This document shows positions 3,045 to 39,590 of a stretch of 64,000 nucleotides of DNA, one piece after another (position 1 is the stretch's first letter; each line of letters starts with the position of its first letter). This stretch comes from Actinoplanes ianthinogenes (GTDB taxonomy: Bacteria > Actinomycetota > Actinomycetes > Mycobacteriales > Micromonosporaceae). The notes under the pieces are model-generated. The model was not told the origin of the DNA and did not search any database. It worked only from the letters and a program-made list of their open reading frames with translations. Location: contig NZ_AP023356.1 of assembly GCF_018324205.1 (NCBI RefSeq), forward strand, positions 3,551,501-3,615,500, written 5' to 3'. Made by a program: the position numbers and the translations under genes.

Positions 3045-4826
3045 TTGGCGATGCTGAGGTCGTCTTCTCAAGTCCGGCGCGGATCGGGCGATCTCCAGAA
3101 CGTGGGACTGCGCGTCAGCGTTCTTGGACAACTCACCGTCACCGACGGTGCGGGCGCTGTGCTGCCCGCCGGTGAGCTGCCGCGCCGTGCCCGTCAGGTG
3201 CTGGCCGTGCTGGCCGCCCGGCACGACCGGATCCAGTCGAAGGACGCGCTGGCCGACGCGGTGTGGGGCGAGGACCTGCCGGGCAACCACGCGGGCGCGC
3301 TGGAGCACTACGTCTCGGTGATCCGCCGCCGGCTTCAGCCGCAGGGCTCCCCGGCGAACTGGTTCATCGTGACCCGCAGCGGCGGCTACCTGTTCGACAC
3401 CGGCCGCGCCTGTCTCGACCTGGCCGACCTGCGGCAGCTGCTGCGCAAGCTGGACTCGCTGCCGCCCGGCGAGCAGCGGCTGCCGGTGCACGAGCAGATC
3501 CTGGAGCTGGCCCGGGAGCTGCCGTTCCCGGAGGACCCGTACGCCGACTGGGCCGACCCGGTCCGCGCCGAGGTCTCCGTCGCCGCGGTGAACGCCCTGC
3601 TCAAGCTGGCCGACGCGGCCCTCGCCCAGGACGCCCCGCGCTCGCTGCGGCTGGCCCAGGAGGCGATCGAGCTCAACCCGTTCCTGGAGTCCAGCTATCA
3701 GGCCGCGATGACCGCGGCGGTGGCGATGGGCCGCCCGGACGACGCGCTGCGCATCTTCGAGCGCTGCCGGCAGGTGCTGGACAGCGAGCTGGGCGTGGCG
3801 CCCTCGGCCGAGCTGGCCCAGATCAAGCGGGAGGTGCTGGCCAGCCGGTCGACCGAGGCGCCACCGCCGGCCCCGCCGCCGGTCGCCGCCCCCGCGCCGC
3901 ACGTCCCGGTCGTGCCCAGCGAGCGTTTCCTGGGCCGGGTCGCCGAGATCCGTCTGATGCTGGAGCCGGAGACGCCTCCGGTGGTGCACATCGTCGGGCC
4001 GAGCGGCACCGGCAAGTCGGCGTTCCTGACCGAGCTGGGCCGGCACGCGCCGGGCCGGGTCGGGATCGGGGACGCCGGGCCGGCCGTCGGCGTGCTGCGC
4101 CTGGCCTGGCTGCGCAGCGCGCTGACCGACCTGGACGCGAAGCCCGAGGCGATCGAGGCGGTCGAGCGGGCGCAGCCCGACCAGCCGCTGGACCAGGCCG
4201 CCCTGGAACTGATCGCGACCACCTTCGACCGAGCCGAGCAGGTCTACCTGGCCGTCGACGACGCCCGGGACCTGGACGCGGCCAGCGTCGCGGAGCTGGC
4301 CTGGCTGAGCCGGCACTGCCCGGCGCTGCGGCTGGTGCTGGCCTACGAGTACCCGTCGCAGATCGCCGGGCGGCCGGTCGCCGGGCTGGGCACCCCGGTG
4401 GTGCTGCGGCTCAGCCCGCTCACCGCCGAGGAACTGGCGCCGCTCGGCGACCCCGGCCTGCGTGAGCTGACCGGCGGGATCCCGGCCCTGGTCGCGGTGG
4501 CCCGGCGGTCGCACGAGGTGGCGAGCGCGGTGGCCATGCAGATCGCCCGCCGGCGTACCGAGTGGATGCCGTCGCTGGCCTGGGAGGTGCTGCGGGTCAC
4601 CGCGGTGCTCGGCGACCTGGGCGCCGCCGAGCTGGCGACGCTCACCGGGCAGCCGGTCACCGACGTGCTGGCCGCCGTCGACGCCCTCGTGCACGCGTGC
4701 CTGCTGAGCGAGGGCCCGAACGGGCAGGTCGGGCACGCGAGCACGCTGGTGCGCGAGGCCGTGGCCGCTCAGGTCTCCGCCGCGACCGGGATCTACCTGC
4801 GCAAACAGTTGGCGGCGGCCTCCTGA
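3045..4826 (+). CDS. SARP/AfsR-like transcriptional regulator with BTAD and ATPase domain
   Basis: 593 aa. Residues about 22–105 look like an OmpR-type winged helix (LRVSVLGQLTV … ALEHYVSVIRRRL … GGYLFD). A bacterial transcriptional activation domain follows (about 110–265, ending ELGVAPSAELAQIKREVLA), then a Pro/Ala linker and an AAA-type ATPase with Walker A GPSGTGKS near residue 318 and a possible Walker B at VYLAVDDARD. This is the AfsR/SARP-regulator layout but shorter, with no C-terminal TPR block. Translation may start at TTG 3045 or ATG 3051; GAGGGG at 3034–3039 serves either. Divergence from the multicopper oxidase with a shared 68-bp upstream region suggests it controls that cluster, which is inference. 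A terminator hairpin overlaps its stop codon. Confidence 0.85.
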   Translation: MAMLRSSSQVRRGSGDLQNVGLRVSVLGQLTVTDGAGAVLPAGELPRRARQVLAVLAARHDRIQSKDALADAVWGEDLPGNHAGALEHYVSVIRRRLQPQGSPANWFIVTRSGGYLFDTGRACLDLADLRQLLRKLDSLPPGEQRLPVHEQILELARELPFPEDPYADWADPVRAEVSVAAVNALLKLADAALAQDAPRSLRLAQEAIELNPFLESSYQAAMTAAVAMGRPDDALRIFERCRQVLDSELGVAPSAELAQIKREVLASRSTEAPPPAPPPVAAPAPHVPVVPSERFLGRVAEIRLMLEPETPPVVHIVGPSGTGKSAFLTELGRHAPGRVGIGDAGPAVGVLRLAWLRSALTDLDAKPEAIEAVERAQPDQPLDQAALELIATTFDRAEQVYLAVDDARDLDAASVAELAWLSRHCPALRLVLAYEYPSQIAGRPVAGLGTPVVLRLSPLTAEELAPLGDPGLRELTGGIPALVAVARRSHEVASAVAMQIARRRTEWMPSLAWEVLRVTAVLGDLGAAELATLTGQPVTDVLAAVDALVHACLLSEGPNGQVGHASTLVREAVAAQVSAATGIYLRKQLAAAS

Positions 4827-33955: not shown

Positions 33956-36373
33956 CTACGGATGCACCAGGCTCACGATCTGCTTGAACACCTCGACGGC
34001 GTCCTGTTTCCAGCTCTTGCCCGGATCCCCGTACCCGTAGGCCACGATCAGCGCGGCGATCGGTACACAGATCATCGTCAGCAGGCTGAGCAGCACCTGG
34101 AAGAAGCGGAGCAGCCGGCTCTTGCGCCGCTTCGGCTTCGGCGCCGGCTGCCGCTTCTGCTCGGCTTGCTTCGGCCGGGCCGGCTTGGGAGCCTTCCTCG
34201 GCTGCTGCTGGGGCACGCTCGGCGGGCGCGGCGCGGCGACCACGGCCCGCCCGGACACCGGGCGCGCCTGCCCGGTCACCGGAGAGACCGGCCGGGCATG
34301 CGCCACCACCGGGTTCGCCGGCCGCGACGGGGCCGCTTTCGGTGCGGGTTGATTTTTGCGTACGCCGGGAGTGCGCACCTCGTGCTGCGGCGGACTGGTC
34401 GGCATCGTGGCGTCCGGGTCGTGCCGCCAGTGCGGGGGCTCGGCGTCCGGCCACGGGTCGACCGGTGGGCGCATGTGCGGGGGGACCACGAGCTCCGGAC
34501 GGATCTCGGTCTCCCGGTTGTCCACGTCGGGCTCACGGGCGGTCTTGCCCTGCGATGTCGCCGGGGCGGCGGCCCGATCGAGCGGGCGGCGGCCGGACGG
34601 CTCGTCCCCGGACTCCGGCAGCGGTCCGGCGGCCGCACCCGGCACGCGGGGCGGCAACGAACCGGCTGCGGCACCCGGCACCCGCGCAGGCAGCGAACCG
34701 GCACCACCCGGCGCCTGGGCGGGCAGTGACCCGGCAATAGCGCCCGACGCCCCGGCAGCAGCCCCTGATACCTGCGCGGCCGACGACCCCCCAGCAGCCC
34801 TCGGCGCCTGGGCGGGCAACGACCCGGCAGCAGCACCCGGCGCCTGCGCGGCCGGCAACCCGGCAGTAGCGCCCGGCGCCTGTGCGGCCAGCGACCCGGC
34901 AGCAGCACCCGGCGCCTGCGCGGCCGGCGATCCGGCAGACCCGCCGGACGCCTGGGCAGACGTGCCCGGGAGCCGTGCGGGCGGCGGGCCGGCAGCAGCC
35001 CCCTGGCCTCCGGCCGTCAGCGCCGAGCCGGCCGCCTCCGGGATCGATTGCGCCTCAACCGGCTGGGTCATGATCGGAAGGTCCGATTTATCGGACCTGC
35101 CGGATGCGCCGACCGGCGGCGGCGTCGTCGGCTCACTGAAGTCCCGCACCACCGGCGCCGGCCCGCTGAAGTCCCGCACCGCAGGCGTCGTGAGCTCGCT
35201 GAACTCGGACGCCACCGGCATCGCCGGCCCACCGAACTCCGGCAACGACCGCGACGGCAGCCGCAACTCGGCCGTCGGTCCGGGCGCCGCCGGCTCCGAC
35301 GCCAGCAACGCCGCCCCGGCCAGGATGCTCCCCTCGGCCACCACCAGCTCCGGCTGCTCGATCACCACCGGCGGCTCCCCCAGCTCCCGGTGCAGCAGCG
35401 TCGCCACCAACGGGATCCGGCTGGCCCCGCCGACCAGGAACACCCCGGCCAGCCGCCCGGCCGGCAGGTCCGCGAACGTCAGCAGGTTCCGCGTGATCCG
35501 GACGGTCTGCTCCAGCACCGGCCGGGCGACCTGCTCCAGCTCGTCCCGGGTCAGGTGCACCTCGGTGTCCAGCAGCGGCACCACGAAGTCGGCGGACTGC
35601 GCCCGGGACAGCCGCTCCTTGGCGATCCGCACGTCGTCCCAGAGCTGCCGGCGGGCGCGGCGCTCCTCGACCGTGGACGGCTCCAGCAGCCGCTGCCAGG
35701 CGTCCGACTGCATGTGCTCGACCAGCGCCGCGTCCACGTCCAGGCCGCCCAGGTCGTCCCGCCCGTCGACGGCGAGCACCTCGAAGCCGGTGGCGGTCCG
35801 CGAGACCAGGCTGGCGTCGAAGGTGCCGGCTCCGAAGTCGTGCACCATCAGCACCGAGCCGATCGGCACGTCCCGCCCGAGCACCTCGGCGAAGTAGGTG
35901 GCCGCCGCGACCGGCTCGGCGACCAGCCGGGCGCCGGACAGCCCGGCCCGGGCGGCCGCCTCGGCCAGCAGGGTGCGCCGGGTGGCGCCCCAGGTCGCGG
36001 GGCAGGTGAGCGTGGTCTCCGGCCGATACGGCCCGACGGCGCGATGCCACTCCTCGACCACCCGGGCGAGCACCGCGGTGATCAGGTCCACGACGTCGAA
36101 CTCCCGCTCGCCGAGCAGGACCAGGCCGTCGTCGACCCGGCGTTTCGGGTTCGGCTCGAAACGGGCGGGCTCCAGGCGGGCACTGTGCACCGCGTCCCGC
36201 CCGACCAGCAGGCTGCCCGCGGCGTCCGCGAAGACGGCGGACGGCAGCAGGGGCGAGCCGTCGACCAGGATCGGCCGCGCGCGCCCATCCGGCCACCGCG
36301 CGACGGCGACGGTGTTGGAGGTGCCGAAGTCGATGCCGAGGGCGTACTTCGGACCACCCTGGTCGATGGACAT
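33956..36373 (-). CDS. Membrane-anchored Hsp70-like ATPase without substrate-binding domain
   Basis: 805 aa. Residues 1–370 form an Hsp70-type nucleotide-binding domain: GIDFGTSNTVAVA (phosphate 1), VHDFGAGTFDAS (phosphate 2), FLVGGASRIPLVATLL (adenosine). No β-sandwich substrate-binding domain follows. Instead there is a long disordered region with FSE-L and Pro-rich stretches, a block of 12-residue AQAPGAAAGSLP-type repeats (about 460–580), basic Pro/Lys-rich sequence, and one TM near 765–785 (FFQVLLSLLTMICVPIAALI) before a short C-terminal tail. The ATPase should face the cytoplasm. Partner unknown. Precedes the thiamine-diphosphate enzyme gene by 12 bp. Confidence 0.88.
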   Translation of the reverse strand: MSIDQGGPKYALGIDFGTSNTVAVARWPDGRARPILVDGSPLLPSAVFADAAGSLLVGRDAVHSARLEPARFEPNPKRRVDDGLVLLGEREFDVVDLITAVLARVVEEWHRAVGPYRPETTLTCPATWGATRRTLLAEAAARAGLSGARLVAEPVAAATYFAEVLGRDVPIGSVLMVHDFGAGTFDASLVSRTATGFEVLAVDGRDDLGGLDVDAALVEHMQSDAWQRLLEPSTVEERRARRQLWDDVRIAKERLSRAQSADFVVPLLDTEVHLTRDELEQVARPVLEQTVRITRNLLTFADLPAGRLAGVFLVGGASRIPLVATLLHRELGEPPVVIEQPELVVAEGSILAGAALLASEPAAPGPTAELRLPSRSLPEFGGPAMPVASEFSELTTPAVRDFSGPAPVVRDFSEPTTPPPVGASGRSDKSDLPIMTQPVEAQSIPEAAGSALTAGGQGAAAGPPPARLPGTSAQASGGSAGSPAAQAPGAAAGSLAAQAPGATAGLPAAQAPGAAAGSLPAQAPRAAGGSSAAQVSGAAAGASGAIAGSLPAQAPGGAGSLPARVPGAAAGSLPPRVPGAAAGPLPESGDEPSGRRPLDRAAAPATSQGKTAREPDVDNRETEIRPELVVPPHMRPPVDPWPDAEPPHWRHDPDATMPTSPPQHEVRTPGVRKNQPAPKAAPSRPANPVVAHARPVSPVTGQARPVSGRAVVAAPRPPSVPQQQPRKAPKPARPKQAEQKRQPAPKPKRRKSRLLRFFQVLLSLLTMICVPIAALIVAYGYGDPGKSWKQDAVEVFKQIVSLVHP
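34640..34970. repeat. 36-bp repeats inside the Hsp70-like gene
   Basis: About eight to ten degenerate copies of a 36-bp unit, approximately GCACCCGGCGCCTGCGCGGC plus GGGCGGCGACCCGGCAGCA-like sequence, coding on the minus strand for 12-residue AQAPGAAAGSLP segments. Boundaries are approximate. Confidence 0.8.
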
Positions 36374-37745: not shown

Positions 37746-38114
37746 ATGAACAGTGCCCGTTCGAACAAGGATGCCGCGGCATTGGCCGGGTTGCTCGCCA
37801 CCACGGGCGTACTGCATTTCGTGGCGCCGAAGCCGTTCGACGCGATCGTGCCGAAGTCGTTGCCCGGGTCGGCGCGGCAATGGACGTACCTCAGTGGTGT
37901 CGCCGAATTGGCAGTGGCCGCGGCCGTCGCGCATCCCCGCACCCGGCGGATCGGCGGTCTTGCCGCCGCCGCGCTGTTCGCCGGCGTCTTCCCGGCGAAC
38001 GTCAAGATGGCCTGGGACTGGCGGCACGCCTCGCCCGCCAAGCGCGCGATCGCGTTCGGCCGCCTCCCGTTGCAGGCCCCGCTGATCGCCTGGGCCCTGC
38101 GGGTATCTCGCTGA
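37746..38114 (+). CDS. DoxX-like small membrane protein
   Basis: 122 aa with four hydrophobic segments. GVLHFVAPKPFDAIVPKSLP and GVAELAVAAAVAHPRTRRIG are typical of the short DoxX-like family. It starts 17 bp after the previous gene, so co-transcription is likely. Proposed family roles (oxidoreductase partner) are not proved. Confidence 0.75.
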   Translation: MNSARSNKDAAALAGLLATTGVLHFVAPKPFDAIVPKSLPGSARQWTYLSGVAELAVAAAVAHPRTRRIGGLAAAALFAGVFPANVKMAWDWRHASPAKRAIAFGRLPLQAPLIAWALRVSR

Positions 38115-38157
38115 TTCCACCGAAAAGGCCGTCCGCATTCGGCACGATCGAATCACC

Positions 38158-38700
38158 ATGAGAGCGACGCGGATACGGCCCACCGGGATCGAGCGCACCT
38201 TCGGTGACCACGAGATGATCGTCACCAAGACCGATCCGCGTGGCGTGATCACCTACGCCAACGACGTCTTCCTGCGCGTCTCGGCGCTCACCGAGGCCGA
38301 GGCGGTCGGGCAGCCGCACAACCTGATCCGGCATCCGGACATGCCCCGCGGCGTGTTCAAGCTGCTCTGGGACGCGCTCGGGGAGCAGCGGGAGATCTTC
38401 GCCTACGTGCTGAACCTGGCCGCCGACGGCGCGCACTACTGGGTCCTGGCGCACGTCACGCCCAGTTACGACGCCGGCGGCCGGGTGGTCGGTTACCACT
38501 CCAACCGGCGTCGCCCGGCCCCGGCCGCGGTCGCCGCGATCAGCGATCTGTACGCGAAGGTCCGCGCCGCCGAGTCTCGCCACGATCACACCCCGGACGC
38601 CGTCGCGGCCGGTCACCAGGCGCTCCAGGACATCCTCGCCGAGCGCGGCATGGAGTACGACGAGTTGGTCTGGTCGCTGACCAACGGCGGTGGTCGATGA
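38158..38700 (+). CDS. Aer-like PAS domain protein (redox/FAD sensor, stand-alone)
   Basis: 180 aa. One PAS domain, residues about 15–125: [20 protein letters not shown] and [19 protein letters not shown]. The N(L/I)-RHPDMP-x2-x-F motif is that of FAD-binding PAS domains in Aer aerotaxis receptors. The last ~50 residues are helical and polar. It has no TM and no signalling domain; the next gene, overlapping by four bases, encodes a receptor-type signalling domain. The two may act as one split aerotaxis receptor, which is inference. Confidence 0.85.
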
Positions 38701-39590
38701 GGGCGGCCGACGACCCGCTGGCCGTGATCACGGAGACCTGCCGGCGGATGACCGCCGGCGACTTCGAGGCCCGGCTCGCCCCGATCGGCGAGAGCGAGTC
38801 CGCGCAGGCCGCCCGGACCGCGCTGAACGGCCTGCTGGACCGGCTGGACGCGTTCGCCCGGGAGGCCGGCGCCGCCTCCGCCGCGGCCGCCGACGGCCGC
38901 TTCTACCGGCGCTTCCTGACCACCGGGTTGCAGGGCACGTTCCGGCTGGCCGCCGAGCAGATCAACGAGTCGGTCAGCGCGATGCGCCGCAACGCCGACC
39001 AGATCGCCGAGGCGACCCGGGCCCGGCACGCGCTGGCCGACGAGCTGGAGTCCGCCGTGCTGACCGTTTCCGAACAGGTGGCGACCGCGGCCACCGAGAT
39101 GGGCGCGTCGGCGAACGGCCTGGCCACCTTCGCCCGCGGCGCGGTCGCCGACGCCGAGCGCGGGCTCGGCACGGTCACCTCGCTGCGCACCGCGTCCGAG
39201 GAGATCCGGCACGCGGTCGACCTGATCAACCAGGTGGCCTCGCAGACCCGGCTGCTGGCGCTCAACGCGACCATCGAGGCGGCGCGGGCCGGCGAGGCGG
39301 GCCGCGGCTTCACCGTGGTGGCGAACGAGGTGAAGACCCTCGCGAACGAGACCAGCGCGTCCAGTGAGGAGATCATGGGCCAGGTCAACACGGTGCAGCA
39401 GGCCGCGGCCGACGCGGTCGGCGTGCTGGAGGCGGTGAGCCGCAGCTTCCGTGAGATCAACAACCTGATCGACGGGATCGCGGTCGCGGTGGACGGCGGC
39501 GGCGCCGCCGGCACCACCGGATTGTCCCAGCTGGCCGAGGTGTTGCGCGCCGAGGTGACGCGTTTCCTGACGACCGCCCGCCAATCCTGA
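38697..39590 (+). CDS. Soluble chemoreceptor-like signalling protein
   Basis: 297 aa, ATG at 38697 overlapping the PAS gene stop (ATGA). No TM, HAMP or sensor domain. Long α-helical coiled-coil with the hairpin tip [32 protein letters not shown] of methyl-accepting chemotaxis proteins (residues about 184–213). The N-terminal ~110 residues are helical with Ala-rich stretches. It probably forms a trimer-of-dimers type receptor tip that contacts CheA and CheW elsewhere in the genome. Stop is only three bases from that of convergent rbsK. Confidence 0.88.

Follow-up and report, generated by a model that had tools for sequence, protein, structure and literature searches.

A predicted soluble CetB/CetA-type receptor pair with a shortened signalling hairpin in Actinoplanes ianthinogenes and its relatives

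The closest described counterparts of the locus analysed here are two-protein receptors of the CetB/CetA type. In Campylobacter jejuni, the domains of Aer are split over two co-transcribed genes; CetA crosses the membrane with two helices, and CetB is tightly associated with it (PMC2628428). In Magnetospirillum gryphiswaldense, overlapping cetB and cetA genes encode a stand-alone FAD-binding PAS protein, CetB2, and a partner without a sensor domain, CetA2, which is membrane-linked with a predicted 38H hairpin; the CetBA2 pair is described as oxygen-repellent (PMC12442639). FAD was found in purified CetB2, eight contact residues were named from a model laid over Aer, and substitutions at F67, W71 and N86 made the protein non-functional (PMC12442639, 2025). 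Escherichia coli Aer (8dik; PMC9668731) is a single polypeptide with a membrane anchor. AerC-type receptors use a soluble FAD-PAS arrangement for aerotaxis and are likewise single proteins, with PAS domains of their own (PMC13401364).

The pair described here lies in a 64-kb stretch (the window) of the Actinoplanes ianthinogenes genome, a single contig of 9.9 Mb. The nearest named loci are those of Actinoplanes and its relatives. The pair consists of the following elements.

38158..38700, plus strand: CetB-like PAS protein, 180 aa, ATG start; 54-91% identity over nearly the full length in relatives, weaker or partial matches apart
38697..38700, plus strand: ATGA start/stop overlap; a -4 overlap is possible at 57/71 of the relatives' junctions
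38697..39590, plus strand: soluble short CetA-like chemoreceptor (MCP) protein, 297 aa, ATG start; PF00015 E 1e-26; adjoins the PAS gene in relatives

In kind, this pair is CetB/CetA and not a new split. A stand-alone PAS protein of the Aer/CetB type carries the FAD-contact residues, and the adjacent MCP gene encodes no sensor domain. A sequence-only reading of this DNA had set the split, apparently cytoplasmic form against standard Aer, a single membrane-anchored protein. The split is not supported as a novelty. Overlapping cetB/cetA genes were already described in Magnetospirillum gryphiswaldense (PMC12442639), as were AerC-type cytoplasmic single-protein FAD-PAS receptors (PMC13401364). That reading was right about the four-base overlap of the two frames. 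Its view that the pair is fully cytoplasmic also agrees with hydropathy, which predicts no membrane segment in either protein (highest 19-residue Kyte-Doolittle means, 1.16 for the PAS protein and 0.93 for the MCP protein). The window pair thus differs from Aer in having two frames and no membrane segment, from AerC-type receptors in being two proteins, and from the membrane-associated C. jejuni pair, the last distinction being drawn from published description and not from compared sequences. The part that differs is the partner. It lacks the membrane anchor of CetA, and we therefore file the pair as a CetBA-like variant rather than with classical CetA. The unusual feature, which the earlier reading missed, is a symmetric shortening of the signalling hairpin together with the loss of its methylation sites. 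We consider it likely that the pair is a cytoplasmic two-protein energy-taxis (aerotaxis or redox) receptor of the CetB/CetA type that acts via the flagellar chemosensory array, without methylation of its own.

The pairing is conserved. The PAS protein is present in 65/120 related genomes, 58 of them in the same genus (67 genomes, this one included). In the loci examined, an MCP gene adjoins every complete PAS gene of at least 54% identity on the same strand (its frame is broken in L045), except at L072, where a complete PAS gene has no partner in the stretch examined; the broken or weaker PAS loci L106, L108, L109, L110 and L111 hold no intact pair. With these five (broken or unlike) and L043 and L044 (which overlap L061 and L062) left out of the counts, 76 PAS and 76 MCP proteins remain. 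The PAS gene precedes the MCP gene at 71 junctions and follows it at 7. The reversed junctions belong to tandem pairs in L061 (G007) and L062 (G029), to an MCP-PAS-MCP arrangement in L046 (G064) and to the MCP-PAS order in L041, L042, L047 and L048; the MCP-PAS order is perhaps a remnant of tandem copies. Among named loci, limited to the 80 best of at least 592 candidates and therefore tilted towards near relatives, the partner adjoins the PAS gene on the same strand in 79, downstream except in L118 and L120. At the remaining locus, L182, the contig stops just past the PAS gene. In L116, a 170-aa orphan chemoreceptor with little beyond the tip (3224-3736) has neighbours that by eye belong to tryptophan breakdown (tryptophan dioxygenase, kynureninase).

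An ATG or GTG start that overlaps the PAS stop by four bases is possible at 57 of the 71 PAS-then-MCP junctions of relatives, and a one-base overlap at 6 more; the script favoured overlapping starts wherever present, so these are possible starts, the true ones being unproved. As judged from these junctions, overlap of the two genes exceeds chance. A single PAS+MCP polypeptide was found at none of the 71, the PAS frame ending at most four bases past the MCP start, or earlier. We rejected the idea of a frameshifted fused Aer, since relatives keep two frames and the PAS and MCP parts are each conserved separately. Two loci (L108:1428-2903, L109:1185-2882) hold single frames in which a PAS of this type, more remote at 41-46% identity, is joined to about 290 aa that the MCP profile does not match; one of the two genomes, G077, has no CheA match.

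Upstream of the pair lies a MauE/DoxX-like gene and downstream a convergent gene for a pfkB-family sugar kinase. The former encodes a small protein just 5' of the PAS gene (window 37746-38114; PF07291 E 5e-5, below the cut-off; DoxX by eye). Such a gene lies at most 400 bases upstream in 39/77 related loci (a count that takes in L043 and L044, repeats of parts of L061 and L062) and in just 5/80 named loci, all five near relatives of Actinoplanes; we therefore rejected it as a required third part. Farther upstream, an Hsp70-like protein (window 33956-36373) has, by eye, an extended Ala/Pro/Gly repeat region and a hydrophobic stretch at its C-terminus. An alignment of 66 upstream regions, in which kinship was ignored, shows a poorly conserved background with A at -14 in 43/66, A at -11 in 49, T at -10 in 43 and A at -3 in 52. 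It points to one candidate element.

38143..38148, plus strand: -10-like hexamer CACGAT, possible near-leaderless promoter, suggested by the alignment

With AnnAT at -14 to -10 and A at -3 (window 38143-38157), the PAS mRNA may be almost leaderless. Inspection by eye for a FliA-type promoter gave nothing convincing.

The MCP signalling domain (PF00015; residues 137-252 of the window protein) was present in 24/24 aligned family members. The structural model and the alignments divide the partner as follows.

38715..38846, plus strand: HAMP-like unit 1, roughly residues 7-50; in the model, a connector of 14 residues joins helix 7-19 to a helix that starts at 34
38847..39017, plus strand: HAMP-like unit 2, roughly residues 51-107; in the model, a helix runs to 66 and another starts at 81, joined by a 14-residue connector of low confidence that holds one short (four-residue) helix
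39018..39266, plus strand: shortened N arm of the signalling hairpin; 113 residues from HAMP landmark to tip Asn, against 155 in 8/8 membrane-bound relatives
39243..39335, plus strand: kinase-contacting tip, 31 residues; core invariant or near-invariant
39267..39494, plus strand: shortened C arm, residues 191-266; 107 residues from tip Asn to C-terminus, against 149 in 7/8 and 146 in 1/8 membrane-bound relatives
39495..39584, plus strand: Gly-rich linker and terminal helix, residues 267-296; loop 267-275, helix 276-296 (model); conserved GLS.lAevLr.Ev.rf

The earlier description of this protein as a chemoreceptor tip without a sensor stands in its second half only: it is sensorless, and the tip-only view is rejected, as the model has helix-connector-helix twice ahead of a shortened hairpin. 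Residues 1-107 are probably two HAMP units in series, as modelled. PF00672 matches unit 1 weakly (E 0.12 here; with E up to 1 it is matched in 8/24 family members, 7.1e-5 being the best value); unit 2 has no Pfam match and is assigned from the model and a conserved GRFhRR.L..G..G. Among the best structural matches of the model are two soluble hairpins, those of a Thermotoga maritima chemoreceptor (3g67; 198 residues at 3.1 A, Z 14.4) and of Bacillus subtilis YfmS (9a72; 172 residues at 1.9 A, Z 13.5), in a list where unrelated helical proteins reach Z 12-13. We know of no CetB partner for either receptor. At the tip (window 39243-39275), the residue after QT is Arg in 67/76 family members, otherwise Gln (5) or Lys (4); it is Asn in most receptors of this genome and in the aligned membrane-bound and acidobacterial relatives.

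The hairpin sets the window partner apart from its relatives. Three architectures occur among 79 named loci: 8 membrane-bound (the label given to loci with a hydrophobic stretch in the CetA frame), 9 soluble with a full-length hairpin and 62 soluble and short. The membrane-bound form is confined to Pseudomonadota. The soluble full-length form comprises five Nocardioides-like loci, two from Acidobacteriota, one from Planctomycetota and one unplaced, and the soluble short form is all Actinomycetota, three Nocardioides included, except a single record that carries the label Bacillus and clusters with Blastococcus. On the PAS tree, a quick unrooted one with many open forks, these labels require 4 changes; shuffled labels need 16.4 on average. 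The N arm is 155 residues long in 8/8 membrane-bound and 162 in 8/9 soluble long forms. In 64 short sequences it measures 113 in 53, 109 in 8 and 116 in L166, a broken MCP frame counted as short by default (the landmark was not found in L136 and L140), and in 76 nearer relatives it is 113 in 72 and 109 in 4. The C arm is 149 (7) or 146 (1) residues in membrane-bound forms, 141-149 in soluble long forms and mostly 105-111 in short ones. With arms of 113 and 107 residues, the window protein therefore lacks 42 residues (six heptads) per arm relative to the membrane-bound form, a shortening that keeps the coiled-coil register. This difference was measured against other alphaproteobacterial relatives and not against CetA2 itself. 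A short hairpin occurs in 0/8 membrane-bound forms; L178, counted as soluble long by its C arm, breaks the symmetry with 112 and 141 residues.

We took [ASTG]2-x2-[EQ]2-x2-[ASTG]2 as a strict consensus for methylation sites. Counting from the tip Asn, 8/8 membrane-bound forms have it at -68 and again at +72 or +73, and 7/9 soluble long forms have it at one or more of these places. In the soluble short sequences, 0/64 have it at -68 or +72/73, and 5 match elsewhere. The window MCP protein has no match, as opposed to 22/29 of the other receptors of this genome with a recognised tip; 1/76 family members has one. In the alignment, the -68 site falls within the segment missing from the N arm; in the C arm, the site sits at the margin of the gap and reads AVDGG here and AVEEQ-like in long forms. 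The placement of the deletions within the arms depends on a MAFFT alignment of a repetitive coiled coil; only the arm lengths and the absence of the motifs are firm. Since both the motifs and the region are absent, we infer that the shortened hairpin has lost its adaptation sites; the lost consensus is good, not final, evidence for a receptor that would not be methylated. The same genome holds two more short receptors without membrane segments or methylation motifs, L019 and L197, with by eye a GAF-like domain before the hairpin.

Which array such a receptor would join is the point on which the likeliest alternative turns. The genome has 33 MCP, two H-kinase_dim (CheA), 11 CheW-domain, 3 CheR and 6 CheB matches. 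The MCP protein of the pair is the sole MCP match within the window, where a profile search found no CheW, CheA, CheR or CheB. A flagellar cluster at 4.168-4.163 Mb encodes, in order, a CheA with two CheW domains, CheW, CheB and CheR, about 29 kb from flagellin (4.134 Mb), and fits the F5 pattern described for later-branching Actinobacteria in section 8 of PMC10746217. Hairpin classes here are arm lengths, and the full-length 38H hairpin of the F5 partner class is not seen in the window partner. A CheA (PF02895) match is present in 64/65 PAS-positive and 21/55 PAS-negative genomes (Fisher p 2.4e-14, with kinship ignored and 58/65 from one genus; a CheA without a PF02895 match would escape these counts). 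In the CheA-less PAS-positive genome, G077, the match is no pair but a PAS of 46% identity within a frame of 565 aa. In 25/65 PAS-positive genomes the CheA match is single, and the pair therefore does not need a second CheA. Because PAS presence tracks CheA and these 25 have one match, the flagellar, F5-like CheA is likely the partner of the pair. Nine of the 67 same-genus genomes, this one included in the total, have CheA and flagellin matches and no PAS match; the receptor is therefore dispensable.

Alternatively, the same receptor could serve a different array, one confined to the cytoplasm, or a Che system other than the flagellar one. The genome offers candidates: a CheA cluster at 3.237-3.243 Mb, with a second CheA, a three-CheW-domain frame and an MCP frame without membrane segments at 3.23-3.24 Mb, and a che-like cluster near 0.93 Mb, with CheW, CheR, CheB and MCP matches at 0.928-0.935 Mb. 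Length also speaks for this alternative, since receptors of the same length class tend to feed one array (PMC10746217) and the stretch that follows the tip Asn, 107 residues in the window partner, is about 144 residues in most receptors of this genome whose tip is recognised. Against it stand the 25 genomes with a single CheA match; in three of them (G017, G018 and G062, coordinates compared by eye) the distance from CheA to flagellin is about 35-37 kb. With no membrane anchor, a receptor would presumably not have to match the tip-to-membrane distance. We regard a separate array as unlikely and keep the flagellar array as the preferred site of action.

The identity of the cue rests on the PAS protein, for which the following features were mapped.

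38221..38514, plus strand: PAS fold of the Aer/CetB type, about residues 22-119; Pfam PAS E 3.6e-9, Aer 8dik by sequence and by Foldseek
38317..38346, plus strand: ten-residue stretch H54-P63, part of the predicted FAD pocket; H54 and R58 invariant in 76/76, contacts in Aer (PMC9668731) and CetB2 (PMC12442639)
38521..38685, plus strand: C-terminal tail of three predicted helices, residues 122-176, with a conserved YDE.vW; pLDDT by block 68-93

The earlier reading had pointed to an RHPDMP motif of FAD-type Aer domains, and the comparison supports that prediction: IRHPDMP occupies residues 57-63, and the best solved-structure match by sequence is E. coli Aer (8dik, E 3.6e-25). Aer is also the first Foldseek match (E 3.7e-8), with a low TM-score (0.40) and an rmsd of 8.3 because the PAS model is middling (pLDDT 73). 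All eight FAD contacts named for CetB2, H54, N55, R58, F67, W71, N86, V100 and R117, recur in the window protein with identical letters and numbers (PMC12442639), and the contacts H53, R57, W70, N85 and R115 of the Aer crystal structure stand one or two numbers below their counterparts here (PMC9668731). H54, R58, F67, W71, N86 and R117 are invariant in 76/76 family members; at position 100, 68 members have V and the other 8 have I. These residues argue that the PAS protein would bind FAD. The family profile spans the C-terminal tail even at loci with a membrane-bound partner.

The pair could instead be a taxis receptor for another cue, with a PAS protein that senses something other than redox state through another flavin or ligand. 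PAS domains bind many ligands, as noted in PMC12442639, position 55 varies in the family (N in 57, S in 19 of 76), and LOV (flavin photoreceptor) domains match the PAS protein by sequence, far more weakly than Aer does. The six invariant Aer/CetB2 contacts weigh against this alternative. So does the absence of the LOV cysteine motif, in whose place stands NLIRHPDMP. On balance a non-redox cue seems quite improbable, and energy sensing remains our reading. Finally, a decaying receptor, whose short hairpin no longer controls CheA and which survives by chance, is very hard to credit: PAS or MCP frames are broken or partial at L045, L106, L110, L111 and L166 (some possibly through assembly errors), but MCP identity is 61-96% in most same-genus loci (41-47% in L094, L099, L101 and L103), tip residues are invariant and the same short length recurs across many actinobacterial families.

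In the mechanism that we propose, the CetB-like PAS protein would hold FAD and report its redox state, as its residues suggest. It would dock on the HAMP-like N-terminal part of the CetA-like partner, by analogy with CetBA work and from the gene pairing. Through its conserved tip, the short hairpin of the partner would then alter CheA activity within the flagellar chemosensory array. This change may alter the swimming of motile cells, which in Actinoplanes are zoospores, so that the pair would serve taxis. No CheR/CheB tuning of its own is expected, because the partner lacks the methylation sites of its long relatives; adaptation would rely on neighbouring receptors. More tentatively, the actinobacterial two-protein energy receptor may have left the membrane and then lost six heptads per arm and the methylation sites of both arms, to become an adaptation-free receptor that joins an array of longer ones. 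Joining such an array would be possible because, having no membrane tie, it would be free of the length match of anchored receptors.

A literature search, with most subscription journals outside it, turned up no soluble CetA, no CetBA pair from Actinobacteria and no redox-taxis receptor for actinobacterial zoospores. As a compact, fully soluble sensor-receptor pair, this system would lend itself to reconstituting PAS-to-HAMP signalling in trans in vitro, a difficult task with membrane-bound CetA. Related receptors with and without the adaptation region, served by the same kind of sensor protein, provide a natural test of the purpose of that region. For the organism and its relatives, the analysis proposes a redox-taxis receptor that zoospores of Actinobacteria may use.
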